From the NCBI RefSeq assembly GCF_031432975.1, contig NZ_CP133838.1, positions 4,774,001 to 4,838,000 on the forward strand: a stretch of 64,000 nt of DNA. Direction: 5' to 3'. This document shows positions 14,116-53,872 of this stretch, one piece after another. This stretch comes from Buttiauxella selenatireducens (GTDB lineage: Bacteria > Pseudomonadota > Gammaproteobacteria > Enterobacterales > Enterobacteriaceae). Numbering within the stretch: the stretch's first letter is position 1; each line of letters begins with the position of its first letter. The notes below the pieces were generated by a model. It was not told the origin of the DNA. It did not search any database and saw only the letters and a program-made list of their open reading frames with translations. The translations under genes and the position numbers were made by a program.

Positions 14116-14172
14116 CCCTCTCCTTCAAGGAGAGGGTGAAACCGTACCATCCCTTCACCTTCAGGAGAGGGA
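14116..14172. repeat. GGAGAGGG palindromic repeat, short copy
   Basis: Just after yjdM, 14116-14136 is a perfect hairpin (CCCTCTCC, 5-nt loop, GGAGAGGG); a second imperfect copy (CCCTTCACC / GGAGAGGGAG) spans about 14151-14172. The linker GTGAAACCGTACCATC resembles the GAAAACCGT linkers of the arrays at 34.3 and 53.4 kb. It is the smallest member of the repeat family described in the findings. Confidence 0.8.
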
Positions 14173-14252
14173 GAAAGCGTCCGTCCCCCGCCTGGCTTGC
14201 CCTTATTCCCACATCTACACTTCATATGCACTCCGCATATGAGGAAAAAACC

Positions 14253-14693
14253 ATGTCTGTTGGCCCCTACATCTTTTTTGACGGCACCTGCGAAGAAGCT
14301 ATCGCGTTTTATAAACAAGCTATCGGTGCTGAACTGCTGTTTAAAATGACTTTTGGCGAAATGCCAAAGGAGGAAGCAAACAATGCAGCAGAAGGCTGCA
14401 ACAGTGGATTTAACTGGCCTGATGATAAAATCATGCATGCCAATGTCCGAATAGGTGACAGTGAAGTCATGATGAGTGACGGCAATATGGCCACCGATCA
14501 GGTGAAACACTCAGGCTACTCACTGAGCCTGACCAGTAAAGATGTCGACGAAGGTAAACGGTGGTTTGATAACCTGGCCGCCGGTGGAAATGTCACCATG
14601 CCCTGGGGCGAAACATTCTGGGCCAAAGGCTTTGGCATGTTGACCGATAAGTACGGGATCCCGTGGATGGTGAATGTCGAAAAACCGATGTAA
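14253..14693 (+). CDS. yjdN: VOC-family protein YjdN (PhnB)
   Basis: A 146-residue protein of the glyoxalase/bleomycin-resistance (VOC) fold, matching E. coli YjdN/PhnB (147). Recognisable stretches are PYIFFDGTCEEAIAFY, FGEMP and WFDNLAAGG, with the C-terminal GIPWMVN. The start at 14253 follows GAGGAAA; the in-frame extension upstream runs through the palindromic repeat and is not credible. Function is unknown; the link to phosphonates is by position only. Confidence 0.9.
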   Translation: MSVGPYIFFDGTCEEAIAFYKQAIGAELLFKMTFGEMPKEEANNAAEGCNSGFNWPDDKIMHANVRIGDSEVMMSDGNMATDQVKHSGYSLSLTSKDVDEGKRWFDNLAAGGNVTMPWGETFWAKGFGMLTDKYGIPWMVNVEKPM

Positions 14694-14744
14694 GCCGTTT
14701 TAGGGTGCTGCCGCCTGCGATGACAGACGGCAACACCGCTACAC

Positions 14745-15959
14745 CTACCGCGCTATTGCCCAGTTAATGGGGATGGCGCCCTGCCCGTGTAAATAGCTCT
14801 GTAACGGTTGCGGCGCATAAGGTCCTGGCAGACATTCCCCGGTTATCGCTGACTGCTGCAACAACATTGGGCCGCCGCTCAGCCGCTCAATAACCGACTG
14901 GTGAACCATCATAGATGAAGTCAGCGGTGGAGGAAGCTGTCGAGGCATGATGCGCAAATATCGGGTTGGCGGAAACCAATCGCAATGCAGCAGCCCGAGC
15001 GGGTCTGCAATAACCTCGCTGGGTGCAAGATTAATTCCCAAATCGTCGAGCGCATCATGCATCCACAAATACGCGCCATTCGACAAACCGCGGTCCTCCT
15101 GAGCGTTTTGATATCCCCCACCCACATCCTGATGAATACCAGGAAACATCACCTGCAAAATACGATCGCGGTTGTCCCACAATACGGGTTCTAAATCGAC
15201 ACGTTGCTCATCAATCGCCAGCGCCTGTAGCCCATATTTCACCCGTGGATGCAGCTCGGTATTGTTAAAGCGGAAAACGTTGTAGCGTTTATCGGTGAAA
15301 TACCTGGGGATGCCCATCAGCCCGACCGTTTCCCACACCGCGACCGCCTCAATGGAGGCCGGACGCGAAATACAGGTAGGGTCAACGCTGTCGCAAAAAA
15401 AACCCGGCAACTCGCGCACCACGCTCCCTAGCAGGCTCGGGCTCATTTCCGGCGAATGGGCAAGAAACTGCGCCCACACCGACGCGGCAAACCGCCACGC
15501 CTCATCTTTATTGCGCTGATTTAATTTCAGCTTTTCACGATTTAATAAGCCACGATCGATGATCATCTCCGCCAGTACACGCGCGGTATAGGCACCGTGG
15601 CTAAATCCCACCAAATAGATCCGATCGCCCGGCTGCCAATGGCGGCTGATAAAGGTGTACCCGCGAATGATCGGCACGATCAAATCTGCGCCAAATGCGC
15701 CACCCAGTCGCTTGATCAGGCCATTATGCGGATCACCCATTCCATAAATGTATTTCGCGACTTGCACCACATTGCCGCTGCTATCCGTCAGCGTTTTTTC
15801 TTGCTCATTGGCTAACAACAAACTTTGCTGGTCAACAATGCCTTTAAAATCAATAAATAACTGATAAACATTACTGGCGACGGTTTCATCATCCGGCTTT
15901 GATTCAAAACCGGGAGCGGTCCATGTGCCATCGGCACAAAAAATAATATTCTTGCTCAT
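14745..15959 (-). CDS. DUF2235 alpha/beta hydrolase (Tle1-like phospholipase fold)
   Basis: A 404-residue protein of the DUF2235 family, which includes Tle1-type phospholipase effectors of type VI secretion. Seen: N-terminal FCADGTW, nucleophile elbow GFSHG (Ser120) and HQDVGGGY (His276 and Asp278). The family motif VWDTVG reads VWETVG here, with Glu at 210 where Asp is usual. There is no signal peptide, PAAR or VgrG part, and no immunity gene beside it. It is divergent from phnC. It could be an orphan effector or a housekeeping hydrolase; I favour the family assignment, not a specific role. Confidence 0.75.
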   Translation of the reverse strand: MSKNIIFCADGTWTAPGFESKPDDETVASNVYQLFIDFKGIVDQQSLLLANEQEKTLTDSSGNVVQVAKYIYGMGDPHNGLIKRLGGAFGADLIVPIIRGYTFISRHWQPGDRIYLVGFSHGAYTARVLAEMIIDRGLLNREKLKLNQRNKDEAWRFAASVWAQFLAHSPEMSPSLLGSVVRELPGFFCDSVDPTCISRPASIEAVAVWETVGLMGIPRYFTDKRYNVFRFNNTELHPRVKYGLQALAIDEQRVDLEPVLWDNRDRILQVMFPGIHQDVGGGYQNAQEDRGLSNGAYLWMHDALDDLGINLAPSEVIADPLGLLHCDWFPPTRYLRIMPRQLPPPLTSSMMVHQSVIERLSGGPMLLQQSAITGECLPGPYAPQPLQSYLHGQGAIPINWAIAR

Positions 15960-16085
15960 TGTTACCTTCCCAATGACCGGCGGGTAACTGTAAGCAAAGA
16001 CAAAAACGAAGCGCCAAACAATACGACAAATAGCTGATTAGCTTGATGACTTCCAGGCTGCCGCTCACTCTTCATCATATCGAAA

Positions 16086-16110
16086 CTTATCTTTAACAAA
16101 ATCGTCACAT
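16086..16110 (+). promoter_or_regulatory. Candidate Pho box of the phn operon
   Basis: About 40-65 bp before phnC, the block CTTTAACAAAATCGTCACA (16091-16109) and the following CGGCACCATGAGGCAACTTTTTTAAGG-like leader strongly resemble the E. coli phnC (psiD) promoter, which PhoB activates under phosphate starvation. The PhoB 7-mer repeats are imperfect, so the limits are approximate. Confidence 0.55.
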
Positions 16111-16151
16111 TCTATCGGCACCATGAGGCAACTTTTTTAAGGAGCCGAATG

Positions 16152-16934
16152 ATGCAAACAATTATTCGCGTCAACAAACTGAGCAAAACCTTCAACCAAC
16201 ATCAGGCGCTGAATGCGGTTGATCTGGTTGTTAATGAAGGTGAGATGGTTGCTCTGCTGGGGCCGTCTGGTTCAGGCAAATCTACCCTCTTACGTCACCT
16301 GAGCGGCCTGATTACTTCCGATAAATCAGCAGACTGCCACGTTGAATTGCTCGGCCGCACCGTACAAAAAGCGGGTCGCCTGGCAAGTGACATACGCAAA
16401 AGCCGCGCCCACACCGGCTACATCTTCCAGCAGTTCAACCTGGTGAATCGCCTGACGGTACTGGAAAACGTACTGATTGGTGCACTCGGTTCCACGCCGT
16501 TCTGGCGTACCTGTTTTAACTGGTTTACCCGCGAGCAGAAACAACGCGCATTGCAGGCACTGACCCGTGTCGGCATGGCGCAGTTTGCGTATCAGCGCGT
16601 CTCCACCCTGTCCGGTGGGCAGCAGCAGCGCGTGGCGATTGCCCGTGCGCTGATGCAGCAGGCGAAAGTGATTCTCGCCGATGAACCGATTGCCTCCCTC
16701 GACCCGGAATCTGCACGCATCGTGATGGAAACCCTGCACGACATTAACCGTCTGGACGGCATCACCGTGGTGGTGACGCTGCATCAGGTGGACTACGCCC
16801 TGCGCTATTGCGAACGCATTGTCGCACTGCGCCAGGGTCATGTGTTTTACGACGGAAGCAGCTCAGCGTTCGACAACGAACGGCTGGGAAATCTTTACCG
16901 CAGTATGAATCGCGTCGACGCGGTCGCTGCTTAA
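16152..16934 (+). CDS. phnC: Phosphonate ABC transporter ATPase PhnC
   Basis: ATPase of the phosphonate importer PhnCDE, 260 residues. Walker [10 protein letters not shown] (about 38-46), signature LSGGQQQR, Walker B ILADEP and an H-loop histidine in [11 protein letters not shown] are all present. Two ATGs are adjacent (16149 and 16152); the second gives the E. coli-like N-terminus MQTIIRV and a 7-nt spacing from AAGGAG. First gene of phnCDEFGHIJKLMNOP. Confidence 0.95.
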
Positions 16935-16966
16935 TACTTTTATCCACCTTCAGGAATAAGTCAGCC

Positions 16967-17983
16967 ATGAGCTACAAAGCCGCTAAAGCCCTTGTCTTTA
17001 CCAGCCTGTTAAGCGTCAGCACCCTGTTCAGCGCAGCTCATGCGGATGAACAAGAGAAAGCGCTGAACTTCGGCATTATCTCGACAGAATCGCAGCAAAA
17101 CCTGAAACCACAGTGGGACCCGTTCCTGAAGGATATGGAGAAGAAGCTGGGCGTGAAAGTGAATGCTTTCTTCGCGCCGGACTATGCAGGGATCATCCAG
17201 GGGATGCGTTTTAACAAAGTGGATATCGCCTGGTACGGCAACCTTTCCGCGATGGAAGCGGTAGACCGCGCTAACGGGCAAGTATTTGCTCAGACCGTTG
17301 CGGCAGACGGTTCTCCGGGTTACTGGAGCGTGTTGATCGTCAATAAAGACAGCCCAATCAACAACCTGCAAGACATGCTGGCGAAGCGCAAAGAGCTGAC
17401 TTTTGGCAACGGCGATCCTAACTCTACATCGGGTTATTTGGTCCCTGGATATTACGTCTTCGCCAAGAACAACGCGGCTGCCAATGAATTTAAACGCTCC
17501 GTGAATGCCAACCACGAAACCAACGCCCTGGCCGTCGCCAATAAGCAAGTGGATGTCGCCACCAACAACACTGAAAACCTCGATCGTTTAAAGAAAACCG
17601 CCCCTGAGAAATTCAAAGATCTGAAAGTCATCTGGAAATCCCCGTTGATCCCAGGCGATCCGATCGTGTGGCGTAAGAACCTTTCCGAAACCACCAAAGA
17701 CAAAATTTACGACTTCTTTATGACTTACGGCAAAACCCCGGAAGAAGCGGCCGTGTTGAAAGGCCTGACATGGGCACCGTTCCGCCCATCCAGCGACCTG
17801 CAACTGGTGCCGATTCGCCAGCTCGCCCTGTTCAAACAGATGCAAGGCGTGAAGGACAACAAAGGGTTAGCCGAGCCGGAAAAAAACTCCAAAGTCACCG
17901 AGATTCAAAACCAGCTTAGTGATCTGGACCGCCTGACCGCCGCGCTTTCTGCGATGAGCAGTGTGAATAAAGCGGTTCAGTGA
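16967..17983 (+). CDS. phnD: Phosphonate-binding protein PhnD
   Basis: Periplasmic binding protein for alkylphosphonates, 338 residues, the same length as E. coli PhnD. The signal peptide ends SAAHA-DEQ near residue 26. The mature protein has the family stretches FGIISTES, FAPDYAGIIQGM, DIAWYGNLSA and NGDPNSTSGYLVP that line the phosphonate pocket. The start at 16967 follows phnC by 32 nt, with AGGAATAAG about 10 nt upstream. It is followed, unusually, by a 205-bp palindromic array before phnE. Confidence 0.95.
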   Translation: MSYKAAKALVFTSLLSVSTLFSAAHADEQEKALNFGIISTESQQNLKPQWDPFLKDMEKKLGVKVNAFFAPDYAGIIQGMRFNKVDIAWYGNLSAMEAVDRANGQVFAQTVAADGSPGYWSVLIVNKDSPINNLQDMLAKRKELTFGNGDPNSTSGYLVPGYYVFAKNNAAANEFKRSVNANHETNALAVANKQVDVATNNTENLDRLKKTAPEKFKDLKVIWKSPLIPGDPIVWRKNLSETTKDKIYDFFMTYGKTPEEAAVLKGLTWAPFRPSSDLQLVPIRQLALFKQMQGVKDNKGLAEPEKNSKVTEIQNQLSDLDRLTAALSAMSSVNKAVQ

Positions 17984-17991
17984 TCGATTAG

Positions 17992-18196
17992 CCCTCACCC
18001 CGACCCTCTCCCCCAGGAGAGGGGGGAAACCACTCGGTCAGCCCCCTCTCCCTCAGGAAAGGGGGGAAACCACTCGGTCAGTCCCCTCTCCCTCAGGAAA
18101 GGGGGGAAACCACTCGGTCAGTCCCCTCTCCCTCAGGGAGAGGGGGGAACTACTCGGTCAGTCCCCTCTCCCTCAGGGAGAGGGTTAGGGTGAGGG
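17992..18196. repeat. Palindromic GGAGAGGG array inside the phn operon
   Basis: A 205-bp array between phnD (stop 17983) and phnE (start 18249). It opens with CCCTCACCCCGACCCTCTCC and closes with GGGAGAGGGTTAGGGTGAGGG, its inverted complement. In between are about four units of 40 bp, each a hairpin CCCCTCTCCCTCAGG(A/G)(A/G)AGGGGGG plus the constant linker AAACCACTCGGTCAGT. Units differ by only a few bases. In RNA this would be a chain of strong hairpins without U-tracts, so attenuation or 3'-end protection of phnCD mRNA is more likely than full termination. Confidence 0.9.
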
Positions 18197-18248
18197 TGGT
18201 TTTCAAAGGGTGAGGGCGTCCGAACTCAAACGATTAACGGAGCACCAC

Positions 18249-19031
18249 ATGCAACAAACCATTCAAGTCGCCGCACCCAAACGTAGCTGGTTCTCGCTAC
18301 TCAGCTGGGCGATCTTGCTGGCGGTACTCGTTGCCTCCTGGCAAGGCGCGGAAATGGCCCCGCTCACCTTGTTCCGCGATGCGGGCAATATGGCGACCTT
18401 CGCCGCCGACTTCTTCCCACCTGATTTCAGCCAGTGGCAGCAATACCTCAGCGAAATGGGCGTCACGCTGCAAATCGCCGTCTGGGGCACCGCACTTTCC
18501 ATCGTCCTTTCCATCCCTTGCGGCCTGATGTGCGCCGACAACCTGGTGCCTTGGTGGGTTTACCAACCGATACGCCGCCTGATGGACGCCTGCCGCGCCA
18601 TCAACGAAATGGTGTTTGCGATGTTATTCGTGGTCGCCGTCGGCCTGGGCCCATTCGCAGGTGTTTTAGCTCTGTTTATTCACACCACCGGCGTGCTCTC
18701 GAAACTGCTTTCTGAAGCGGTGGAAGCCATCGAACCCGGCCCGGTTGAAGGCATTCGCGCCACCGGTGCCAACAAACTTGAAGAGATCATTTACGGCGTG
18801 CTGCCACAAGTGATGCCACTGCTTATCTCCTACTCGCTCTATCGCTTCGAGTCGAATGTCCGTTCGGCAACGGTGGTCGGCATGGTGGGTGCAGGCGGGA
18901 TTGGCGTAACACTTTGGGAAGCGATTCGTGGATTCCAGTTCCAGCAAACCTGCGCGCTGATGATTGTCATCATCATCACCGTCAGCCTGCTGGATTTCCT
19001 GTCGCAACGACTGCGTAAGCACTTTATTTAA
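18249..19031 (+). CDS. phnE: Phosphonate ABC transporter permease PhnE
   Basis: Integral-membrane permease of PhnCDE, 260 residues with about six helices. The EAA-type cytoplasmic loop ([21 protein letters not shown]) that contacts PhnC is intact, as is the C-terminal [13 protein letters not shown]. The start at 18249 gives the E. coli-like N-terminus and has GGAG 8 nt upstream; an earlier in-frame ATG would begin at the repeat edge. Unlike the cryptic phnE of E. coli K-12, which carries an 8-bp duplication, this frame is open throughout. Confidence 0.95.
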
Positions 19032-19047
19032 CGAGGCTTTGTTGACG

Positions 19048-19773
19048 ATGCACTTATCCAGACATCCGACCAGTTACCCGACGCGTTACCAGGAAATCGC
19101 CGCCCTGCTCGAACAGGAGCTGCGTAAAAACTACCGCTGTGGCGACTACCTGCCAGCCGAAAGCCAACTGGCGGCACGTTTTGAGGTGAATCGCCACACG
19201 CTGCGCCGCGCCATCGACCAGTTAGTCGAAAAGGGCTGGGTACAGCGCCGCCAGGGAATCGGCGTGCTGGTGTTGATGCGCCCGTTCGATTACCCGCTGA
19301 ACGCGCAGGCTCGTTTTAGCCAGAACCTACTCGACCAGGGAAGCCACCCCACCAGCGAGCGCTTACTCGCCGTATTGCGCCCAGCCTCAAGCCATGTGGC
19401 AGACGCGCTGAGCATCACCGAAGGCGAGAACATTATTCATCTGCGCACATTGCGCCGCGTTAACGGCATCGCGGTGTGCCTGATTGACCACTACTTTGCC
19501 GACCTTTCCTGGTGGCCCACGCTGCAACACTTCAACAGCGGTTCGCTACACGACGTTATCCAGGCACAGCTCGGTATTAGCCTTAAACGCACTCAAACAC
19601 GCATCAGCGCACGCCGCGCTCAGGCCAAAGAAAGCCGCCTGCTGGAAATCCCCAACATGGCGCCGCTGCTCTGCGTACGCACCCTTAACCACCGTGAAGG
19701 CCACGCGTCGCCGGCGGAATACTCCGTCAGTCTGACCCGTGCCGACATGATTGAATTCACCATGGAGCACTAA
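19048..19773 (+). CDS. phnF: GntR-family regulator PhnF
   Basis: A 241-residue transcription factor, identical in length to E. coli PhnF. The N-terminal winged helix-turn-helix (about 10-75, with AESQLAARFEVNRHTLRRAIDQL) is of GntR/HutC type; the C-terminal UTRA domain (about 90-235) binds a small effector. It probably represses the phn genes; the ligand in E. coli is not settled. It starts 16 nt after phnE and its TAA directly abuts the phnG ATG. Confidence 0.93.
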   Translation: MHLSRHPTSYPTRYQEIAALLEQELRKNYRCGDYLPAESQLAARFEVNRHTLRRAIDQLVEKGWVQRRQGIGVLVLMRPFDYPLNAQARFSQNLLDQGSHPTSERLLAVLRPASSHVADALSITEGENIIHLRTLRRVNGIAVCLIDHYFADLSWWPTLQHFNSGSLHDVIQAQLGISLKRTQTRISARRAQAKESRLLEIPNMAPLLCVRTLNHREGHASPAEYSVSLTRADMIEFTMEH

Positions 19774-30498: not shown

Positions 30499-30664
30499 CC
30501 CCTCACCCTGGCCCTCTCCCAAGGGAGAGGGGATTGGATCGAGTATGGTTATGATTTTCTCCCTCTCCCCCAGGAGAGGGAATAATATGGTTTTCCCCCT
30601 CTCCAGGGGGAGAGAGAATAATACGGTTTTCCCCCTCTCCTGGGGGAGAGGGCTGGGGTGAGGG
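30499..30664. repeat. Palindromic GGAGAGGG array between kinase and sugar operon
   Basis: 166 bp opening with CCCCTCACCCTGGCCCTCTCCC and closing with GGGGGAGAGGGCTGGGGTGAGGG, its inverted complement. Inside are hairpins CCCCCTCTCC/GG(G)GGAGAG joined by the locus-specific linker GAATAATA(T/C)GGTTTT, repeated with a period of about 36 bp. It separates the divergent kinase and ABC operon, so it lies in or next to two promoters, unlike the operon-internal copies. Confidence 0.88.
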
Positions 30665-34291: not shown

Positions 34292-34423
34292 CCCCTCACC
34301 CCGGCCCTCTCCCAAAGGAGAGGGGGAAAACCGTACCGTCCCTTCTACCTACGGAGAGAGGGAAATCGTGAATCCCCTCTCCGCACTGTCCCCTCTCCCC
34401 GTGGGAGAGGGTTAGGGTGAGGG
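34292..34423. repeat. Palindromic GGAGAGGG array after the sugar-binding protein
   Basis: 132 bp starting 7 nt after the binding-protein stop. Opens CCCCTCACCCCGGCCCTCTCCC, closes GGGAGAGGGTTAGGGTGAGGG. Internal hairpins are separated by GGAAAACCGTACCGTCCC and GAAATCGTGAATCCC; the first resembles the 14.1-kb and 53.4-kb linkers. It is inside the presumed operon and ends 24 nt before lyxose isomerase. Confidence 0.88.
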
Positions 34424-37031: not shown

Positions 37032-37180
37032 TATTTATTAGACGTTCCATTAATAATAACGGCATCAATATATAGAATTTATTTTGCGAGAGAGATTCCA
37101 GAACAATGTAATTTTAAATAATAAATTACATTGTTAATTTCATTTAAAATAAATAAAAACTGCGTAAACTACGCGGCGGG

Positions 37181-37393
37181 TGCTTAGGGCTTTCAGTCCT
37201 GAGCATGAGTGAGGGATATTCTTTGAATCCAAGGAATAAGAAAGCCCCGGGCAACTTTGACGTTAACCCGAGGCTATCCCTCAACCCTAGACAAGTTGAG
37301 ATTAGCCTCTTACTCGCCGCAAGGCAAGGAGTAACAGGCATGAAGCCGACAAAAACTGTTGTCATTTGTTTATTAAATTATACTCGTCATAAT
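37181..37393 (+). pseudogene. Truncated hok/mok-type type I toxin locus
   Basis: The 362-bp gap between the kinase and the response regulator contains a region with the layout of a hok mRNA. Bases 37181-37204 and the following AGAAAGCCCCGGGC (about 37238) resemble the hok leader; ATTAGCCTCTTACTCGC, a GCAAGGAG ribosome site and ATG at 37340 match the hok start. The encoded peptide begins MKPTKTVVICLL, as a Hok membrane segment would, then departs from the family (NYTRHNSS...) and runs into the 3' end of the response-regulator gene, so the transmembrane and C-terminal CEL...AYE parts are missing. A mok-like leader frame from 37205 enters the same frame. The toxin is presumably dead; the leader may still be transcribed. 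Confidence 0.65.
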
Positions 37394-38416: not shown

Positions 38417-40564
38417 ATGAAAAAAGTCGTCACGGTTTGCCCCTATTGTGCCTCAGGTTGCAAAATCAACCTCGTGGTCGATAACGGCAAAGTCGTCAAG
38501 GCGGAAGCGGCTCAAGGTAAAACTAACCAGGGCGATCTTTGCCTGAAGGGTTACTACGGCTGGGATTTTATTAACGATACTAAAATCCTCACCCCGCGCC
38601 TGAAATCACCGATGATTCGTCGCGAGAAAGGCGGCAAACTCGAAAATGTTTCCTGGGATGAAGCACTGAACTACGTCAGCACTCGTCTTAGCGAAATCAA
38701 AGCGAAACACGGCTCCGATGCCATCATGACCACCGGTTCTTCCCGTGGTACTGGCAACGAAACCAACTATGTGATGCAAAAATTTGCGCGCGCCGTTATT
38801 GGTACCAATAACGTTGACTGCTGCGCACGCGTCTGACACGGCCCATCGGTTGCAGGTCTGCACCAATCGGTCGGTAACGGCGCTATGAGCAACTCAATCG
38901 TCGAGATTGAGGATACCGATTTAGTGTTTGTGTTCGGGTACAACCCGGCAGATTCACACCCTATCGTTGCTAACCGCGTGATTCGTGCGAAGCAAAAAGG
39001 GGCGCAAATCATAGTTGTCGATCCACGCAAAATTGAAACCGCGCGCATCGCCGATATGCATTTGCAGTTAAAAAATGGTTCTAACATCGCCCTGCTTAAC
39101 GCAATGGCGCATGTGATTATTGAAGAAAACCTGTATGACCAGTCCTTCGTGGCTGCCCGTACCGAAGGTTTCGACGAGTATCGCAAAATTGTTGCAGGCT
39201 ACACGCCTGAATCCGTTGAAGAAATTACTGGCGTGAGCGCGTCGGAAATTCGCAACGCAGCGCGTATGTATGCAAACGCAAAAACAGCCACGATTCTGTG
39301 GGGCATGGGCGTGACCCAGTTCTATCAGGGCGTGGAAACCGTTCGCTCGCTGACAAGTCTTGCGCTGATGACCGGTAATCTGGGTAAACCAAACGTGGGT
39401 GTAAACCCGGTTCGTGGTCAGAACAACGTGCAGGGCGCTTGCGATATGGGCGCACTGCCGGATACCTATCCGGGCTACCAGTACGTGAAAGATGAAGCAA
39501 GCCGCGAGAAGTTCGCGAAAGCCTGGGGCGTAGATTCTTTACCTGCGCACACCGGTTATCGCATCAGCGAATTGCCACACCGCGTCGCCCATGGCGAAGT
39601 GCATGCGGCGTACATCATGGGTGAAGATCCGCTGCAAACGGATGCGGAGCTTTCAGCCGTGCGTAAGGCGTTTGAAGATCTCGAACTGGTGATTGTACAA
39701 GACATCTTCATGACCAAAACCGCGGCTGCGGCCGATGTGATTTTGCCGTCCACCTCCTGGGGTGAACATGAAGGCGTTTACACCGCCGCTGACCGTGGTT
39801 TCCAGCGCTTCTTTAAAGCGGTAGAACCGAAGTGGGATTTGAAAACGGACTGGCAAATTATCAGTGAAATCGCCACCCGTATGGGTTACCCGATGAGCTA
39901 CAACAACACCCAGGAAATTTGGGATGAGTTGCGTGGCTTGTGCCCTGACTTCTATGGTGCTACCTACGAGAAAATGGGCGAATTGGGTTATATCCAGTGG
40001 CCTTGCCGCGATGTCGCGGAAAGCGACCAGGGAACTTCGTTCCTGTATGACGGTAAGTTCGACCGTGAAAATGGTCTGGGTGAATTCTTTACCTGTGACT
40101 GGGCGCCGCCAATCGACAAAGTCACCGAAGAGTACCCAATGGTGCTTTCAACGGTGCGTGAAGTGGGCCACTACTCTTGCCGTTCAATGACCGGTAACTG
40201 TGCGGCACTGGCAGCCCTGGCGGATGAACCTGGATACGCGCAAATCCACATCGACGATGCTGCTCGTTTGGGTATCGAAGATGAAGCGCTGGTGTGGGTT
40301 AATTCCCGCAAAGGTCGCGTCATCACGCGTGCGAATGTGAGCGAACGTCCGAATAAGGGCGCGGTTTACATGACGTATCAGTGGTGGATTGGTGCCTGTA
40401 ACGAGCTGGTGACAGAAAACCTCAGCCCGATTACCAAAACGCCTGAGTACAAATACTGTGCCGTGCGTGTGGAGCCGATTGCCGATCAGCGCGCCGCCGA
40501 ACAGTATGTGATTGACGAGTACAGCAAGCTAAAAGCTAGCCTGCGTGAGAGCGCGGCGGGCTGA
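38417..40564 (+). CDS. fdhF: Formate dehydrogenase H, selenoprotein
   Basis: Molybdenum enzyme oxidising formate to CO2 in the formate-hydrogen-lyase complex. The frame is read through an in-frame TGA at 38834-38836, which is codon 140, the selenocysteine position of E. coli FdhF; the total of 715 codons is also identical. Cluster cysteines Cys8, Cys11, Cys15 and Cys42 plus Lys44 are present. The DNA right after TGA (38837-38878) can form the bacterial SECIS hairpin and looks the same as E. coli there. Without recoding two false frames would be called. GGAGC precedes the ATG. Expression is probably anaerobic and FhlA-driven from the RpoN promoter above. Confidence 0.97.
38837..38876 (+). promoter_or_regulatory. 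SECIS element in fdhF mRNA
   Basis: The bases following the selenocysteine TGA (CACGGCCCATCGG...CCAATCGGTCGG) form a stem with apical loop containing GGTCTGC. This is the SelB-binding hairpin; its sequence is, as I recall it, unchanged from E. coli fdhF. Confidence 0.85.
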
Positions 40565-44694: not shown

Positions 44695-44780
44695 CTCCCT
44701 CTCCCTGTGGGAGAGGGTCGGGGTGAGGGGAATACAATCAACATAACGCCCTCACCCTAGCCCTCTCCCCCAGGAGAGGG
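44695..44780. repeat. Palindromic GGAGAGGG repeats between acs and yjcH
   Basis: Two members in inverted arrangement: 44695-44730 (CTCCCTCTCCCTGTGGGAGAGGG then TCGGGGTGAGGGG) and 44749-44780 (CCCTCACCCTAGCCCTCTCCCCCAGGAGAGGG). The GGGTGAGGGG and CCCTCACCC ends face each other across 18 nt, the reverse of the layout seen at the other loci. Confidence 0.85.
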
Positions 44781-46785: not shown

Positions 46786-46796
46786 TCGTTTTGCCC

Positions 46797-46826: not shown

Positions 46827-47015
46827 CACCGATCGACTTCGCATTTTCCCTCGCTCAATACGCCGTTGCTCACAGTTTTCCGCCCAACAAAAGTGATTCG
46901 CGTCACAGAGAATTTCTCCATTTTGCGAGATTGATCGCGAGTTTAGCCATTGCCAGTCGTAGCGCGGTTTTGCGCGCCGATTGCCGCACGACAATCCCAT
47001 TCCACCTTCATATGA

Positions 47016-48578
47016 TTATCTCAACAGGCTCGCGGCGAACTCACGTAACCGTTCAGCATTGAGCAGTAATGAAACATAGTGCGGGCTGCCTGCTGGCGGC
47101 GAATCAGCCCAACGTTCCAGCGTATCGGCAAAACGCAGCAGTGTTTCCCGATGCCCGGTGGACGTCTTTAACACCTGGGCGGCATCACCGTAATGTTCGC
47201 TCATTTGCATGTCACTGACAGCGAAAGCAACGCGTGAGAACAGCTGGCCGTACATTTCGGCGTTACGCCAGGCGGCTTCAAGGCGTTCCAGCGTGTCGTT
47301 GGGGCAGGTGATGCGTAGTTCGCGGAGTTGTTGTACCGCAGAGGTTGCAAGAAACTGGGCGCTCTCTTTTTCAAGTCCAATCAACTGGCGTTGATCGGCG
47401 CCGAGTTTAGGGTCGTCTTTTGGAAACAGCGGCTGAAAAGCCTGTACCCAGTTGGCGCTACGAATGTCGGTATGCAGCAGTTGCTGCGCCTGAGCATAGC
47501 TTTCCGGGATTTGGCTTTGGTAGTGCATGCGCCGCCCGAGAAGATTCGGTGTTTTGCATAGCCAGTCGTAACTTGAGGTGTACAAATCGCTAAAACGCTG
47601 GCGGTCCAGCTTGCTGTGGAAACCCAGTTTTTGCTGCTCAATCCAGCGGTCAATGACAGAAGAAGGCGCGGTGTTATTCGCGGCATTTAAGCCGAAAAGA
47701 TTGATGGCATTAGCAGAATCCATCGTCAGACCGTCAGGCAGCCACTGCCAGGCAACGCGTGATGTGATGGTTTCGATGTTGTGGTCAGCGAGGCTGGTCG
47801 CCCAGCTTAAACGCCCCTGGATTTCATCGCCCAGATAACAGGGCAGGATCGTCCAGCCGTAGCCGGTGCCCCAGAGATCGTATTCGATCCATTTTTTACG
47901 CCCGCTGAGCGCCACAATATGCGGGTGGTTAGCAAAACCGGGATGGTAATCCAGTTCCGTGGCTTTTATCGACGCGCGTACATCATCCGGCAGGCCGGAT
48001 AACACGCGAGAAAGTTGTTGGCGCGGCCAACTGGTATCAATGAAATCGCGCAGAATGAGTTTTTTACCCTGAGCCCGTAACAGGCTCCAGACGTGATGCA
48101 GGCTTTGCTGCCAGCCGTCGGTCTGAAACTGCGGGGTGGTCAGGCTCAATATCAAACCGCTGAGGTGCGGTAATAACGGTAATAACCGGGTCAATATCGA
48201 CGAATAAAACTGTTTCCAGAAATCGGGCGTACTGCGCTCATCAAAAGAAAACTCAGGAAATTTACGTCTGATGATGTCATCGGTCGGCGCGGCTTCGCCT
48301 TGTAGCCAAAAGCTGAGGTTATTCTCCTGCAAATAAGCACTGACCTTTTTTAAATATTGCAGGGCGTTTTTTTGCTGGTGAATAAGATTTTCAACGTCGT
48401 GGCGGTAACTCAACGGTGACGGTGTTGCCAGCAGCGAAAGCAACTCCTGCTGATGAAGAATAATGCCGGTAAAACCGTGAACTCTGGCGGCATTGACACA
48501 AGAAACAAACCACGGCCAGTGCCAAATAAACGGGCTGTTTAACTCCATTAATTGATGCGGAACCAGTTTCATACGCAT
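47016..48578 (-). CDS. Glycoside-hydrolase-like protein of unknown specificity
   Basis: 520 residues with no signal peptide. I do not recognise the family with certainty. The first 300 residues look like a TIM barrel (alternating hydrophobic strands: GFTGIILH, HLSGLILSL, KKLILRDFID, IKATELDYHPG, KKWIEYDLWG), followed by a helical C-terminal domain. The order (flow from an arginine-aspartate strand, IKATELDY, then a strand ending before GDEIQGRL) recalls GH67 alpha-glucuronidases, but key residues cannot be assigned. It is divergent, 80 bp, from a Gfo/Idh/MocA oxidoreductase, a pairing common in breakdown of uronic or amino-sugar derivatives. Function beyond carbohydrate metabolism is a guess. 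Confidence 0.6.
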   Translation of the reverse strand: MRMKLVPHQLMELNSPFIWHWPWFVSCVNAARVHGFTGIILHQQELLSLLATPSPLSYRHDVENLIHQQKNALQYLKKVSAYLQENNLSFWLQGEAAPTDDIIRRKFPEFSFDERSTPDFWKQFYSSILTRLLPLLPHLSGLILSLTTPQFQTDGWQQSLHHVWSLLRAQGKKLILRDFIDTSWPRQQLSRVLSGLPDDVRASIKATELDYHPGFANHPHIVALSGRKKWIEYDLWGTGYGWTILPCYLGDEIQGRLSWATSLADHNIETITSRVAWQWLPDGLTMDSANAINLFGLNAANNTAPSSVIDRWIEQQKLGFHSKLDRQRFSDLYTSSYDWLCKTPNLLGRRMHYQSQIPESYAQAQQLLHTDIRSANWVQAFQPLFPKDDPKLGADQRQLIGLEKESAQFLATSAVQQLRELRITCPNDTLERLEAAWRNAEMYGQLFSRVAFAVSDMQMSEHYGDAAQVLKTSTGHRETLLRFADTLERWADSPPAGSPHYVSLLLNAERLREFAASLLR

Positions 48579-48658
48579 TACCGGAAATAAAGCCAGGTTG
48601 GAATTGTAGGGTGGATAAACGTCAGCGTCATCTACCCCTTATTGAATATGAGGATATT

Positions 48659-49954
48659 ATGAAAAAATATGCGTTGGTGGGAACCGGTGGCCGAGCGGGC
48701 TTATATATCGAAGCGATCGGTGGAAAATGGAAAGACAATGCGCAGTTAGTCGCGTTTTGCGACACCAATCAGACGCGCATGAATTACGCCAATAAGCTGC
48801 TGACCAACACAGGCGCGGCGCAGGCGTCCACCTGGAAAGCTGCGGATTTCGAAACCATGATCCGCGAAACGCGCCCGGATATTGTCATTGTCACCACCAT
48901 GGACCGAACGCATGACGATTACATCGTGCGAGCGCTACACGCTGGTTGCGATGTGATTACCGAAAAACCGATGACCATTGATGAGCAGCGCGCCCTGCGC
49001 ATTCTGGATGCCATCGAACAGACTGGCCGGGAAGTGCGCGTCGCATTTAATTATCGTTATGCGCCGCACCACAGCAAAATCCGTGAACTGCTGATGGATG
49101 AAACCATTGGTGAAGTGTTCTCGGTGCATTTCGAATGGTTACTCAACACCGAACATGGTGCGGATTATTTCCGTCGCTGGCACCGCGAAAAACGTAACAG
49201 CGGCGGCCTGCTGGTGCATAAATCCACCCATCACTTTGACCTGATGAACTTCTGGCTGGGCAGTTATCCGGAACGGGTATATGCGGAAGGCGGACTGCGT
49301 TTTTACGGCAAAGAGAATGCAGAAAAGCGCGGTGTTTCGCAGTTTTATCCACGAGCCCATGGTTTTGCTGCGGCCAAAGATGACCCGTTTGCGCTACACA
49401 TGGAGGACAATGCGCAGCTCAAGGCGCTGTATCTGGAAGCGGAACATGAAGACAATTATTTCCGCGACCAGAGCGTATTCAGCGACGGGATTAACATCGA
49501 AGACACCCTGTCGGTGATGGTTAAATACCAAAACCAGGTGCAGATGACCTATTCACTGAACGCATATTTGCCGTGGGAAGGGTTGAACGTGGTGTTCAAC
49601 GGCAGTCGCGGGCGGCTTGAGATGAAACTGGTGGAGATGTCTTACGTCAATGCTGGCGGCGAACGTGAAAATGAAGGCAGTCTGGAAAGCTGTGACATCA
49701 CCGTGTTCCCCATGTTTTCAGCACCTTACAAAGCCGATTTCAGTATTGGCGCGGGTGGACACGGCGGTGGCGATAACGCGATGCTGGCCGACTTATTCGG
49801 CGAACCGGGTCACGACCCACTCAAACGTGCCGCCGATCACCATGATGGGGCGATGTCGATCCTGACCGGTATTGCCGGGAATATTTCGATGCAACAACAG
49901 CGCCCGGTTTGTTTTAAAGAGTTTGAGCTGGTTTCACGGCTAAAAAGTAAGTAA
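48659..49954 (+). CDS. Gfo/Idh/MocA-family oxidoreductase
   Basis: 431 residues. Rossmann N-terminus ALVGTGGRAG (about 4-13) and the family ITEKPMTIDEQRA near residue 100 identify it. The catalytic-region HKSTHHFDLMNFWLG (about 187-201) carries the usual histidines. Such enzymes oxidise, reduce or epimerise sugars or cyclitols with NAD(P). The start at 48659 follows GAGGATATT; an in-frame ATG 16 codons earlier is less plausible. Divergent from the glycosidase-like gene and probably part of the same small pathway. Confidence 0.88.
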   Translation: MKKYALVGTGGRAGLYIEAIGGKWKDNAQLVAFCDTNQTRMNYANKLLTNTGAAQASTWKAADFETMIRETRPDIVIVTTMDRTHDDYIVRALHAGCDVITEKPMTIDEQRALRILDAIEQTGREVRVAFNYRYAPHHSKIRELLMDETIGEVFSVHFEWLLNTEHGADYFRRWHREKRNSGGLLVHKSTHHFDLMNFWLGSYPERVYAEGGLRFYGKENAEKRGVSQFYPRAHGFAAAKDDPFALHMEDNAQLKALYLEAEHEDNYFRDQSVFSDGINIEDTLSVMVKYQNQVQMTYSLNAYLPWEGLNVVFNGSRGRLEMKLVEMSYVNAGGERENEGSLESCDITVFPMFSAPYKADFSIGAGGHGGGDNAMLADLFGEPGHDPLKRAADHHDGAMSILTGIAGNISMQQQRPVCFKEFELVSRLKSK

Positions 49955-49967
49955 GCACTTACTGGGT

Positions 49968-49998
49968 GATGTCGGGTAGTGCTTCACTGCCCGACATC
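49968..49998. repeat. REP-like palindrome, left copy
   Basis: GATGTCGGGTAGTGCTTCACTGCCCGACATC: stem GATGTCGGG/CCCGACATC with an internal AGTG-cttc-CACT stem. An almost identical copy is at 51076-51102, on the other side of the CHAP/lipoprotein pair. Confidence 0.8.
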
Positions 49999-50195
49999 AC
50001 ATTCACGATTAAAGCTATAATCATCAAGAATAATATCGCTAAATATCAACTAGTTAAAAACCTATCTTACGTTCATCCACATTACCCATGCATCAACAGT
50101 TTCCATACTTTTTATCTATGGCACCTTATGCAATAAAACCATTTCAAATCAGTGGTTTATTTGTGGTTTTCACAATATCAAAAAAGGAAATCACG

Positions 50196-50564
50196 ATGGG
50201 ATGTAACAGAAATGCGGCTGTAGATCACGCCAGAGGGCACGCAAACGCCAGCTCTCATGGTCGTTGTGCTGAATACACCAGAGAAGCGATCAATGCAGGC
50301 GGAGTCGAAATTGGCCACACCAATTCAGCTAAAGACTATGGAGTATTGTTGGAGAACGCAGGTTTTAGAGCTATAGGCAAAGGAGAAAATTTACTCGCTG
50401 GAGATGTTGTCGTCATTCAACCCTATCCAGGCGGAAACCGGAACGGGCATATGGCGATTTTTGATGGCACCACCTGGTACTCTGATTTTCGCCAGCGTGA
50501 TATGTGGGCAGGGCCTGGCTATCGCAGTTCTCATCCTTCGTATGTTATCTACAGGAAAAATTAA
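50196..50564 (+). CDS. CHAP/NlpC-P60-like peptidoglycan amidase, possible T6SS effector
   Basis: 122 residues without a signal peptide. A cysteine-protease-like pair is visible: Cys24 in SHGRCAEYTREA and His85 in RNGHMAIFDG, with an aspartate-rich tail (YSDFRQRDMW) supplying a possible third residue. The fold resembles small CHAP amidases used by type VI secretion to cut peptidoglycan in rival cells. The start at 50196 follows AAAGGAAA; an earlier in-frame ATG at 50088 adds 36 residues not typical of the family. The stop overlaps the next gene (TAATG). No secretion genes are nearby, so the role is inferred. Confidence 0.72.
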   Translation: MGCNRNAAVDHARGHANASSHGRCAEYTREAINAGGVEIGHTNSAKDYGVLLENAGFRAIGKGENLLAGDVVVIQPYPGGNRNGHMAIFDGTTWYSDFRQRDMWAGPGYRSSHPSYVIYRKN

Positions 50565-51067
50565 TGCGTGCATTATTGCTGGTATCACTCCTGCTAATGG
50601 GTTGCACCACTCGCGCACAGACGCCCAAAGCAACCGTCCGCGATTTTTATCATTTTTACTTAACGGATTTTGTCTCTGACGGTAACGAGAACCCGCTGAC
50701 TTCCGCCAAAATGCAGCAGTACGTCGCGAAAGAAACGCTGACAAGGCTTAAAGCCATTCAGGATATCGAAGAGCAAGAGATCGTAGAGGCGGACTATTTC
50801 ACTTACTGCCAGGATTATGCTGCCGAATGGATACCCGCTCTTGAAGTCGGAACCGCCAGAGACGATGCAGGGGGTAAAGTGCTGGATGTCTGGCTGGGTA
50901 TTGAGGGGGGCAAAAAACTTAAGCTTCGCGACTATCTGCGCCAGGAAGACGGGAATTGGAAAATCTACCGGGTGGTGGATGTTTCGAACGGGTTTGAGCA
51001 AAACATATTTGATGATAAAGCGATTAGTGCGGCCAAAGCCCACGCAGCCACGCTCTCCAAAAACTAG
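50564..51067 (+). CDS. DUF3828-like lipoprotein, possible immunity partner
   Basis: 167-residue lipoprotein: signal MRALLLVSLLLMGC with acylated Cys14. The mature part contains ATVRDFYHFYLTDF and LRDYLRQEDGNWKIYRVVDV, typical of DUF3828/NTF2-like proteins. Translation is coupled to the amidase gene (TAATG). A periplasm-facing lipoprotein directly behind a cytoplasmic amidase is the normal arrangement of an effector and its immunity protein; that reading is inference from position. Confidence 0.7.
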   Translation: MRALLLVSLLLMGCTTRAQTPKATVRDFYHFYLTDFVSDGNENPLTSAKMQQYVAKETLTRLKAIQDIEEQEIVEADYFTYCQDYAAEWIPALEVGTARDDAGGKVLDVWLGIEGGKKLKLRDYLRQEDGNWKIYRVVDVSNGFEQNIFDDKAISAAKAHAATLSKN

Positions 51068-51075
51068 CGATGAAA

Positions 51076-51102
51076 TGTCGGGTAGTGCTTCACTGCCCGA
51101 CA
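51076..51102. repeat. REP-like palindrome, right copy
   Basis: TGTCGGGTAGTGCTTCACTGCCCGACA, 9 nt after the lipoprotein stop. Matches the 49968-49998 copy across 27 bp. Confidence 0.8.
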
Positions 51103-51116
51103 CAATATTCACAGCT

Positions 51117-51245
51117 CATACCCAATGGATTTCGAGTTGTAGGCAGGCGGCAAGAGAAGGAGTCCCGAATCACTTACTTAAGTAAGTGATTCGGGCGAGT
51201 GACCGCAGCCAACGCACATACAGCTTGAAAGACGAAGGGTATATT
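51117..51245. repeat. ERIC element
   Basis: About 128 bp with the ERIC layout: left end TCATACCCAATGGATTTCGAG, central near-perfect palindrome CCCGAATCACTTACT/AGTAAGTGATTCGGG (51165-51194), and right end GCAGCCAACGCACATACAGC then GAAGGGTAT. The segment AAGTAAGTGATTCGGGCGAG corresponds to the ERIC2 core. It abuts the 3' end of the lrgB-like gene. Confidence 0.85.
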
Positions 51246-51933
51246 AGAACATCAACCAACTCACAACGGGTGCCAGCACCACCAAAACGACGCCGGAAAA
51301 CATCATCACCAAACTGGCAACCACGCCTTCCTGCGGACCCAGCTCGTAAGAACGCGCAGTGCCCGCGCCGTGAGAAGCGGCACCGAAGCCAGCCCCTTTT
51401 GCCATCCCTTCACGAATCGCAAGACGCAAAAACAGCACATCACCGACCGCCATTCCAAATACGCCGGTCACTACCACAAACAGCGCCACGAGTTCAGGTT
51501 GCCCGCCGAGAGGTTTTGCCGCCGCCAGAGCAAAAGGTGTGGTAATCGAGCGCACCGCAAGGCTGCGCTGGATTTCATCCGACAAAGTAAATAACCGTGC
51601 CAGCCAGACCGAACTGGTCACCGCCACAACCGTTGCGGTGATAACGCCTGCGGTGAGTGACATCCAGTGACGTTTTATCACCTTGAGATTGTCATAAACC
51701 GGTACAGCAAATGCGATTGTCGCCGGGCCAAGTAGCCACAGCAGCCAGTGCGCTTCACCCATGTAGCTTTGATAGGAGATATGGCCAAAAATGAGCATTG
51801 CCACCAGCAGTAATGGGGTCAAAACCAGCGGCATTAACGGCAGTTTGCGAAAGCGGCGATAGAGTTTTTTATTGGCAAAATAGAGCCCGAGAGTGATCAC
51901 CAGGCACAGAATACTCAACTGGAAATTATTCAC
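51244..51933 (-). CDS. LrgB/CidB-family membrane protein
   Basis: 229 residues with about seven helices, LrgB family (YohK in E. coli). Landmarks: LWLLGPATIAFAVPVYDN, SITTPFALAAAKPLGG and GFGAASHGAGTARSYE. It begins with GTG overlapping the LrgA-like stop (GTGA). LrgAB/CidAB pairs are linked to pyruvate or other small-acid transport and, in Gram-positive bacteria, murein hydrolase control; the substrate here is unknown. Confidence 0.9.
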   Translation of the reverse strand: MNNFQLSILCLVITLGLYFANKKLYRRFRKLPLMPLVLTPLLLVAMLIFGHISYQSYMGEAHWLLWLLGPATIAFAVPVYDNLKVIKRHWMSLTAGVITATVVAVTSSVWLARLFTLSDEIQRSLAVRSITTPFALAAAKPLGGQPELVALFVVVTGVFGMAVGDVLFLRLAIREGMAKGAGFGAASHGAGTARSYELGPQEGVVASLVMMFSGVVLVVLAPVVSWLMF

Positions 51934-52352
51934 AGCTTAGCCTGTCTGCGCGCTTCTCGCGCCAGTTCAAAACGGTAGACCTTATCCACCACCAGCGCGG
52001 TTGCACCGAGCACCAGCGTAGTGCTGATAGCAATGACCAGGAAAATGCGCCAGCCATCAACCATCAGCAGTTCAGCGTAATTCACCACCGCGACCACCGC
52101 AGGCACAAAGAACAGCAACATTTCAGCCAGTAACCAGCGAGAGCCTGCACGCACCCATTTCAGCGGCACCACACGGCAAACGATCAGCGCCAACAGCAGC
52201 AACATCCCGACCAGGTTTGCAGGCAGCGGCAAATGCCACCATTCCACTAACTGCTGAGCAAAAACAAACAATCCCGCGTATAGAGCAACTTGTACTGGCA
52301 CTTGCATACGGCGAAAAATAACCGGCGTAAATCCACGTATCGCCACATACAT
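51930..52352 (-). CDS. LrgA/CidA-family membrane protein
   Basis: 140 residues with four helices, LrgA family, including LPLPANLVGMLLLLALI and EMLLFFVPAVVAVVNY. The start at 52352 is preferred: GGAG lies 10 nt upstream and family members begin here; the longest frame (from 52463) would overlap the divergent LysR gene start and lacks a ribosome site. Translationally coupled to the lrgB-like gene. Confidence 0.82.
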   Translation of the reverse strand: MYVAIRGFTPVIFRRMQVPVQVALYAGLFVFAQQLVEWWHLPLPANLVGMLLLLALIVCRVVPLKWVRAGSRWLLAEMLLFFVPAVVAVVNYAELLMVDGWRIFLVIAISTTLVLGATALVVDKVYRFELAREARRQAKL

Positions 52353-52455
52353 GAGAGTGGCACTCCAAAAAAATATGAGGAGGCGATTATAGTTAGCCAA
52401 CGTCATTGAAAGAAATGAATTAAAATCATCAGAGGTATAGTCAACGGGAATAGTT

Positions 52456-53343
52456 ATGGACATCAGGACACTGCGTTATTTTGTTGAGGTGGTTCGCCAG
52501 CAAAGTTTTACCCGCGCTGCCCAGAAGATGTTCGTCACTCAGCCGACCATCAGCAAAATGCTGCGCAATCTCGAAGATGAACTCGGCTGCACGCTGCTGA
52601 TTCGTGATGGACGAAAACTCTTACTGACGGATACCGGTGAGGTGGTTTACCAACACGGTTTGGCTATTTTGGCGGAATTTCGCCAGTTGGAAGCCGAATT
52701 GGGTGACATTAACCATCTCAACAAAGGCGTGCTGCGCCTCGGCATTCCTCCTATGGTCGGCATGTTAATGGCGGGGCCCATTAGCCTGTATCGCCAGCGT
52801 TACCCGGGCGTCGAGCTGAAAATTTCTGAATTTGGCGGTTTGACGGTGCAACAGGCGGTGCTTAATGGCGAGCTGGATTTAGCCATGACCGCCCTTCCGG
52901 TAGAAGACGAGCATACGTTCTGCACGTTGCCCTTGGTCCAGAATCCGCTCTGCGTTTTGGTACCGCGTTCAGGCCCGTGGACGACACGCGAAAGTATCGA
53001 CCCTGGCGAACTGGCCGCTCATCCGTTACTCATCTACAACGAAGATTTCGCATTAAGCCGCCAGTTAATTCAGCTGTTTCAGGAGCATGGATTTACACCA
53101 CGTATTGCGGTGCGCAGCGGGCAGTGGGATTTCCTCGCCGCCATGGTGCAGGCCGGTGTCGGGATTGCGATTTTGCCAGAGACTATTTGCCAGCGGCTTG
53201 ATAAAAACACGCTGATGTGGCTGCCGTTAAACAGCGATTTGACGTGGCAACTGGCGATGATTTGGCGCGAAGGTGTTTATATTTCGCATAGCGCTCAGGC
53301 GTGGATTTCATGCTGTAAGGAGTTTTGGCCGGAGCATCCGTAG
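52456..53343 (+). CDS. LysR-family regulator of the LrgAB pair
   Basis: 295 residues: N-terminal helix-turn-helix (about 1-60; FTRAAQKMFVTQPTISKML) and a periplasmic-binding-like effector domain. Its divergent position, 103 bp from lrgA-lrgB, is the CidR arrangement, so it probably activates the pair in response to an acid metabolite. The 3' end is followed within 5 nt by the large palindromic array. Confidence 0.9.
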   Translation: MDIRTLRYFVEVVRQQSFTRAAQKMFVTQPTISKMLRNLEDELGCTLLIRDGRKLLLTDTGEVVYQHGLAILAEFRQLEAELGDINHLNKGVLRLGIPPMVGMLMAGPISLYRQRYPGVELKISEFGGLTVQQAVLNGELDLAMTALPVEDEHTFCTLPLVQNPLCVLVPRSGPWTTRESIDPGELAAHPLLIYNEDFALSRQLIQLFQEHGFTPRIAVRSGQWDFLAAMVQAGVGIAILPETICQRLDKNTLMWLPLNSDLTWQLAMIWREGVYISHSAQAWISCCKEFWPEHP

Positions 53344-53347
53344 GATG

Positions 53348-53872
53348 CCCTCACCCCAACCCTCTCCCACAGGAGAGGGAGAAAACCGTCCCCAATGATT
53401 TTGCCGAGCTGTCCCTTCTCCCTCAGGAGAGGGAGAAAACCGTCCCCAATTATTTCGCCGAGCTGTCCCTTTTCCCACAGGAGAGGGAGAAAACCGTCCC
53501 CAACTATTTCGCCGAGCTGTCCCTGCTCACTCAGGAGAGGGAGAAAACCGTCCCCAACTATTTCGCCGAGCTGTCCCTTCTCCCTCAGGAGAGGGAGAAA
53601 CCGCCCCAACTATTTCGCCGAGCTGTCCCTTTTCCCACAGGAGAGGGAGAAAACCGTCCCCAATTATTTCGCCGAGCTGTCCCTTCGCCCACAGGAGAGG
53701 GAGAAAACCGCCTCAACTATTTCGCCGAGCTGTCCCTTCTCCCTCAGGAGAGGGAGAAAACCGTCCCAACTATTTTGCCGAGCAATCCCTTCGCCCACAG
53801 GAGAGGGAGAAACCGCCCCAACTATTTCGCCGAGCTGTCCCTTCTCCCTCAGGGAGAAGGTTAGGATGAGGG
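53348..53872. repeat. Long palindromic GGAGAGGG tandem array
   Basis: 525 bp filling the whole space between convergent LysR and yjcE. It opens CCCTCACCCCAACCCTCTCCC and closes with AGGGAGAAGGTTAGGATGAGGG, a slightly decayed inverted end. Between are nine units of 51-54 bp, each GGAGAGGGAGAAAACCGTCC then CCAA(T/C)TATTTCGCCGAGC and TGTCCCTTCTCCC(T/A)CA. Units vary by single changes and small deletions (units 5, 7, 8 and 9 are 1-3 bp shorter). Because 54 is divisible by three, long but meaningless open frames run through it on both strands. Confidence 0.95.

Follow-up and report, generated by a model that had tools for sequence, protein, structure and literature searches.

Paired BoxC elements of Buttiauxella: triplex-type inverted ends around hairpin-linker arrays that differ in length between genomes

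BoxC motifs, which belong to a triplex motif family also known as PIT or TM_ECO, are intergenic sequences whose loci vary by strain, and the TM_ECO motif has been reported to form a triplex in vitro (PMC4666352). In MG1655, five of five close inverted pairs combine the TTA and CCG types of the motif (PMC4666352). Here, we describe motifs of this type in a 64,000-base window (bases 4774001-4838000) of the 5.219-Mb single-contig genome of Buttiauxella selenatireducens, where six intergenic places are built from hairpins, and in the remainder of that genome and its relatives. The phnM protein encoded in the window shares 99% identity with that of Buttiauxella sp. A111 and 88-94% with the other Buttiauxella entries listed. 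The most probable description, in our judgement, is that these are paired BoxC elements, in which two inverted triplex-forming ends surround a hairpin-linker minisatellite that grows by slippage or unequal recombination. As judged from their sequence, the bracketing ends belong to the BoxC family: they fit the printed pattern, CCCTCNCCC-N3-6-GGGNGAGGG-N3-GGGNGAGGG with one mismatch allowed (PMC4666352), and each displays a C-rich stem, a loop, a purine stem, a 3-nt turn and a second purine stem fit to serve as a third strand. The combination of a TTA type with a CCG-like (YYG) type in inverted pairs is likewise found in most of the elements (84/102), though not in all. The end motif is therefore known, and its literal strings occur in PMC4666352, and in one primer of a table in PMC10845240, with PMC7311995 also listed for them. 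The arrangement, however, is new. Unlike the described motifs, the ends here are mostly paired around hairpin-linker arrays, and the available text of PMC4666352 makes no mention of arrays, of an association between loop and flank, or of a sequence-unrelated twin family. What we regard as new is the arrays, a purine-triplex mirror tag that recurs in a second, unrelated family, and the loop-flank association. The 212 ends counted here as an exact 20-mer and the 143 motifs of the richest genome in PMC4666352 derive from different patterns, and these measures are not comparable. Keyword searches of the literature returned no title or opening of an abstract dealing with such arrays in Buttiauxella.

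Other repeats invite comparison. Bacterial interspersed mosaic elements of the BIME-2 type and REPINs, both built from repetitive extragenic palindromes (REPs), share with the present arrays the alternation of palindromes and linkers, the tandem units and a copy number that changes between strains. The differences are that the Buttiauxella arrays have no GTAG tag and no PF01797 transposase, and that they do have a triplex-type mirror tag and locus-specific linkers. For BIMEs, length differences between strains were deemed unlikely to result solely from recombination or slippage, and the REP-associated tyrosine transposase (RAYT) was proposed as the driver (PMC2817692). A further comparison is provided by the CGTC-tagged repeats, which are also palindromic and without a known transposase; these differ in their tag, and the available part of their description does not mention a triplex mirror (PMC3733652).

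Ends, interiors and linkers across the genome

Each end consists of the hairpin CCCTCTCC-loop-GGAGAGGG, followed by a 3-nt turn and the 9-nt tag GGGTGAGGG. Two ends of this kind, pointing outwards, enclose an interior. Tags stand as a rule at the element ends only, and it is the hairpin-linker units that repeat inside. With the turn fixed at 3 nt, exact 20-mer ends number 212 in the B. selenatireducens genome, against 0 for the reversed control. Counts in the twelve Buttiauxella genomes fall into a rich group (212, 182, 175, 137, 119 and 70) and a poor group (12, 7, 6, 6, 3 and 2). In the wider family, at least one exact end was present in 55 of 246 genomes, and the reversed control gave one match, in G186. 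A scan of 1.68 Mb that allowed turns of 1 to 7 nt recovered 80 motifs, of which 53 had a turn of 3 nt, 1 of 4 nt and 26 of 5 nt, the last of which arise when 10-bp stems are read out of frame; the same generic scan found no motif in triplet-shuffled sequence, which is a weak control.

Stretches of the B. selenatireducens genome were chosen for the exact tag, comprising 88 places with a TTA turn (including 2 from the window) together with those non-TTA places that were listed. Unlisted non-TTA places are missing unless they lie near a TTA end, and the 102 paired elements parsed from 108 stretches and the window are accordingly a lower bound. The elements span 50-525 bp (median 133.5), and 13 of them measure 74-82 bp, the smallest size with two hairpins except for a single element of 50 bp. 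Exactly one TTA end is found in 84 of the 102 elements, none in 18, and two in 0.

Linkers were parsed where the hairpin arms agreed within one mismatch, a rule under which 5 elements yielded no linker. Within a locus, linker identity has a median of 0.93, with 81% of pairs at or above 0.8 (274 pairs from the 45 of 102 elements having at least two parsed linkers), versus a median of 0.50 and 2.8% among 2951 random pairs drawn between loci. The initial annotation had proposed that linkers are locus-specific, and this stands insofar as identity is far higher within than between loci. A common theme nevertheless runs through the genome, which tells in part against that proposal: when oriented with the TTA end to the right, 67 of 204 linkers open with AGAAAA and 27 with GGAAAA, and 95 of 204 end in AATC, AGTC, AGTT or AATT. 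Because of this theme, the locus-specific linkers appear to have diverged from a few ancestral ones and to have been homogenised within each locus.

Length change between genomes and its possible causes

Evidence of change comes from a same-species genome, G009, to which 62 whole left-flank pieces of B. selenatireducens loci were mapped, and in which the best 40 of 98 candidates were compared. Flanks are identical at 16465 of 16760 positions (98.24%) over 39 loci, and the ends are 98.0% identical at the 38 loci with both ends delimited. Element length, in contrast, differs by at least 10 bp at 27 of the 38 (17 longer in B. selenatireducens, 10 in G009), with contrasts as large as 441 vs 81 bp (L089) and 337 vs 118 bp (L112) between the same flanks. 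The polarity of the TTA end is kept at 36 of 38 loci. Likewise, the array between phnD and phnE has 5 hairpins in B. selenatireducens and 2 in the 98%-identical Buttiauxella sp. A111, which is possibly the same genome as G009. Linkers at least 0.8 identical persist at the same locus in 26 of the 37 loci parsed in both genomes, and the best match of a G009 linker is at the same locus, or tied with it, in 25 of the 37. The idea that whole hairpin-linker units are copied inside a locus is borne out by these comparisons, and expansion and shrinkage of the interior within a locus is strongly supported.

Our preferred mechanism is replication slippage together with recombination between hairpins, with conversion of whole elements as a second process. 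On one exposed strand, the tag would lie back in the groove of its hairpin as a purine third strand, and hairpins and triplex ends together might stall or mislead replication. Interior units would then be duplicated or deleted as the near-identical hairpins slip or recombine unequally, and the tagged ends may be retained because they are the part that is selected or recognised. Several observations weigh against this mechanism or exceed what slippage can do unaided. Element length is equal at 5 of 38 loci, and 11 of 37 loci have no same-locus linker at 0.8, for which slippage alone is insufficient, although parser failures account for some of these. Whole ends have been swapped at L094, L100, L105 and L127, and polarity has changed at 2 of 38 loci, and both kinds of event go beyond slippage alone.

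Two other accounts of the changing interiors deserve consideration. Ectopic gene conversion acting through the conserved ends could swap whole interiors, leaving local slippage a secondary role. It would explain why two same-species genomes can have an unrelated interior or end at one and the same site (L094, L100, L105, L111 and L127), as well as the 12 of 37 loci at which the best match of the G009 linkers lies at another B. selenatireducens locus; given that 26 of 37 loci keep their own linker and 25 of 37 best matches are local or tied, we regard it as rather unlikely to be the leading process. The alternative of a RAYT-driven REPIN or BIME, on the model of the classical enterobacterial REPs, draws on the similar mosaic layout of inverted palindromes, linkers and intergenic tandem units, and on the role proposed for RAYTs in BIME length change (PMC2817692). 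Yet the GTAG tag is lacking at the hairpin foot, and a search with the PF01797 (Y1) profile, which matches in the E. coli positive control, found nothing in the B. selenatireducens genome or the five other BoxC-rich Buttiauxella genomes (at least 70 ends each), and did find matches in 4 of the 6 BoxC-poor congeners (at most 12 ends; G004, G007, G010 and G011). The check for a RAYT gene that had been suggested for these arrays was thus negative, and on the PF01797 evidence we reject a RAYT as their driver and consider such an origin very improbable. If an enzyme is involved, it is not a Y1 transposase of the kind that the PF01797 profile detects. Some hundred arrays resembling BIMEs thus show very rapid change in genomes where no PF01797 transposase was found, which makes length change and RAYT separable by experiment. 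Moreover, the arrays are usable as strain-typing loci.

Five Y1 matches in the BoxC-poor G011, on contigs 28, 55, 78, 87 and 104, lie in open frames of 142-152 aa, a size like that of IS200. Loss of SbcCD was also considered as a cause of high copy number and rejected; the examination covered SbcD, which is present in 12 of 12 genomes, and its loss is therefore not the cause.

In addition to changing length, the elements were compared for their presence at each site. BoxC DNA occupies 39 of the 40 mapped sites in G009, the exception being the L115 site, where a BoxC tag is lacking and approximately 0.8 kb of other DNA, apparently coding, is present instead. In the congener G006, 14 of the 16 resolved sites have BoxC-type DNA, which is decayed in some (L165, L192 and L193), and 4 further sites could not be resolved; the two exceptions are the L166 site, which has no element, and the L169 site, which holds a classical REP. 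In the BoxC-poor congener G005, the counterparts of the elements are nothing, remnants, REP-like DNA, other DNA or copies of the second family described below, with 2 of 17 sites not resolved; for example, approximately 20 bp separate the alignment anchors where the array at 53.3 kb of the window would be. The A111 relative has approximately 3.4 kb of other DNA and an apparent decayed hairpin at the 30.5-kb site. That insert (L009:16281-19730) has a long open reading frame (ORF) that, by eye, resembles an autotransporter.

With regard to miniature inverted-repeat transposable elements, inverted ends are present, and sites without an element do exist (L166 in G006; L179 and 53.3 kb in G005). 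At these, however, nearby bases are also altered, which obscures any target-site duplication, and no clean insertion was seen among the compared sites because those that lack the element carry further DNA differences. The suggestion that the ends mark the unit that moves did not gain support from sites so consistently occupied, and the insertions are old on the species time scale.

Alleles of different repeat families were also seen in E. coli, where one to five alternative alleles per site were chosen from search rows and REPs were called by eye against the consensus in the available text of PMC2817692. The BoxC-type units that occupy the phnD-phnE, flgG-flgH, flgF-flgG and yhjE-yhjG sites of some strains have as their counterpart in others a classical REP mosaic or a hairpin alone. 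It is as if the BoxC and REP families replace each other allelically in these slots (L239-L257). At phnD-phnE, the E. coli pair stands back to back with its tags facing, as at 44.7 kb in the window, and single-hairpin and inverted alleles also occur.

The stem-tag code, a second family and the flanks

An antiparallel purine third strand pairs by the triplets G*G-C, A*A-T and T*A-T. Read backwards, the tag fits the purine arm in just this manner, with G placed on G-C and A or T on A-T. At the one variable stem position, 178 of 208 ends combine C-G with a tag G and 29 combine T-A with a tag A, leaving 1 discordant; in loci not chosen by their tag, the match holds for 157 of 161 (C-G) and 11 of 11 (T-A). 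In a set of 64 ends, mainly from other genera (L009-L088), those with a 10-bp stem and a loop of at least 3 nt extend the rule past the tag, with the next base being G for C.G in 19 of 19 and T for T.A in 4 of 4; elsewhere, this extension fits 0 of 1 end in the B. selenatireducens set and 1 of 1 in a third set.

A second family, with no evident sequence kinship to BoxC, follows the same plan. One end reads CCTCCCCCT-ggca-AGGGGGAGG-ctg-GG[A/T]GGGGGT and the other has the stem AGGGGAGGG with the tag GGGTGGGGT, so that the A/T position moves with the stem. Two inverted ends, each with a 3-nt turn (CTG in 15 and TTG in 7 of 22 ends), surround a short linker, and there is an extra hairpin in L305. 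Triplex scores of the natural stem-tag pairs average 8.9 of 9, versus 6.9 with stems swapped (22 ends, all admitted at 7 or above), and a manual count among the places listed found A or T opposite a stem A in 116 of 117 cases, C in 1 and G in 0. There are 59 copies in G005, 1 in G008 and 0 in the other ten Buttiauxella genomes (L295-L306, with L296 from G008). Six of the 246 family genomes, carrying 0 to 2 exact BoxC ends, possess the family; among the genomes that have it are five of other genera with no exact BoxC end. Three literal strings of this family were not found in the literature text searched.

Not all of the evidence favors a third strand. Of the 30 tag substitutions in loci selected without regard to the tag, 22 violate the code; the other 8 conform to it, all being T-to-A changes at the same position. 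In 19 of 19 cases with a TTGA loop inside a C.G pair, where forming T.A would reduce the loop to 2 nt, G follows, which the code does not predict if T.A forms. The G/A change of stem and tag may be one inherited event in a subfamily, a view that is weakened by the occurrence of T-A stem/A tag ends with the TTA turn (2), with other turns (27) and with many loops. Finally, dimethyl sulfate probing revealed no stable triplex in vivo (PMC4666352).

The TTA end also happens to be a perfect four-tract G3 pattern (GGG-AGA-GGG-TTA-GGG-TGA-GGG), and the ends could accordingly be G-quadruplexes instead of triplexes. Against this, 30 of 208 ends carry the tag GGATGAGGG (29 on the stem GGAGAAGG and 1 on GGAGAGGG), and the 29 variant ends drop two G3 tracts yet retain every permitted triplet; in addition, the second family places A or T, never G, opposite a stem A. 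A two-layer form is possible, but on this evidence we find the quadruplex explanation improbable.

In the B. selenatireducens genome, the bases that come first beyond the tag can be predicted from the loop of the terminal hairpin (mutual information z up to 38). For example, a TGGG loop is accompanied by C in 55 of 62 cases, CTCAG by T in 28 of 37, and TTTG by G in 11 of 12. No single Watson-Crick register between loop and flank was found in this set, where 6 of the 9 position pairs score above shuffles (z 2.8 to 9.1) and the other 3 fail to. The association recurs among the 64 ends mainly from other genera (z 9.5 and 17.3). It might reflect shared ancestry of a few end subtypes and not physical contact, in which the third strand would continue along the loop. 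In favor of ancestry, the outer bases in E. coli and other genera recur as linker-like sequence (catcagcgtgcg / ggaaatgcgcac), as if derived from an ancestral linker, which, together with the lack of a clean empty site, bears on the idea that the flank is pre-existing target DNA chosen by the loop, and in the 64-end set the turn is associated with the flank as well (z 6.7). On the other hand, the B. selenatireducens turn, although situated between loop and flank, is uninformative about the flank (z -0.26), and the loop has changed in 16 of 53 ends paired with G009 by like flanks. The turn has changed in 10 of these ends. We put ancestry at a little short of an even chance.

It is tempting to suggest, if only tentatively, that mirror-tagged triplex elements form a class of bacterial repeats set by a structural code and not by sequence (inverted modules of hairpin, 3-nt turn and mirror tag on either side of a linker), of which at least two families unrelated in sequence replace one another between species of one genus, in which the triplex can extend past the tag and is matched to the loop, and whose three-stranded form is recognised or copied by a factor other than a RAYT. 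The stem-tag match in two unrelated sequences is evolutionary evidence for selection on the three-stranded form, a question left by the negative in vivo footprinting in PMC4666352.

The six places in the window

Within the window, CCCTCTCC occurs in 38 copies, against 0.85 expected from dinucleotide shuffles (0 of 100 reach 38). All six places are intergenic, and five begin 4 to 26 bases past the stop of the upstream ORF; the element at 30.5 kb precedes a gene on the opposite strand. The features are as follows (window coordinates).

14116-14172, no strand: two tagless hairpins, a remnant of an element, 7 bases past yjdM
17992-18196, no strand: paired BoxC element of 5 hairpins with a 40-bp unit and the linker gggaaaccactcggtcagtc, between phnD and phnE
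17992-18000, minus strand: left tag GGGTGAGGG with the 3-nt turn TCG
18188-18196, plus strand: right tag GGGTGAGGG with the 3-nt turn TTA
30500-30664, no strand: paired BoxC element of 4 hairpins, flanked by the genes for a hybrid histidine kinase and a sugar ATP-binding cassette (ABC) ATPase
34293-34423, no strand: paired BoxC element whose linkers differ from one another, flanked by the genes for a sugar-binding protein and a D-lyxose isomerase
44697-44780, no strand: back-to-back pair of two hairpins with tags facing, at 44721-44729 (plus) and 44749-44757 (minus)
53348-53872, no strand: largest array, approximately 10 hairpins in 52-54 bp units, filling the whole space from a CidR-like LysR gene to the gene for a Na+/H+ antiporter
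53864-53872, plus strand: variant tag GGATGAGGG paired with the variant stem GGAGAAGG

The hairpins of the initial annotation were confirmed on re-inspection of each place, and its bracketing ends hold at 18.0, 30.5, 34.3 and 53.3 kb, where they read CCCTCACCC-3 nt-CCCTCTCC and GGAGAGGG-3 nt-GGGTGAGGG, with the variant GGAGAAGG-TTA-GGATGAGGG as the right end at 53.3 kb. They do not hold at 14.1 kb, which has no tags, or at 44.7 kb, where the tags lie inside. Similarly, the linkers had been thought nearly invariant within each array, and this is clear at 18.0 and 53.3 kb and partly so at 30.5 kb. Near-identical linkers are thus confined to three of the six places, because those at 34.3 kb are unlike each other, one of the three at 30.5 kb differs, and the 14.1- and 44.7-kb places are otherwise built.

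A search for known RNA families (Rfam) gave no match at threshold in the arrays; its three matches in the window lie elsewhere. These are a sok antitoxin RNA (RF01794) at 37178-37342, suggesting a hok/sok type I toxin-antitoxin locus, a bacterial selenocysteine insertion element (RF01988) at 38829-38883, whose adjoining gene probably encodes a selenoprotein interrupted by TGA, and an sraL small RNA (RF01408) at 58202-58342. The window also includes, at 14745-15959, a gene with a type VI secretion system Tle1-like phospholipase domain (PF09994).

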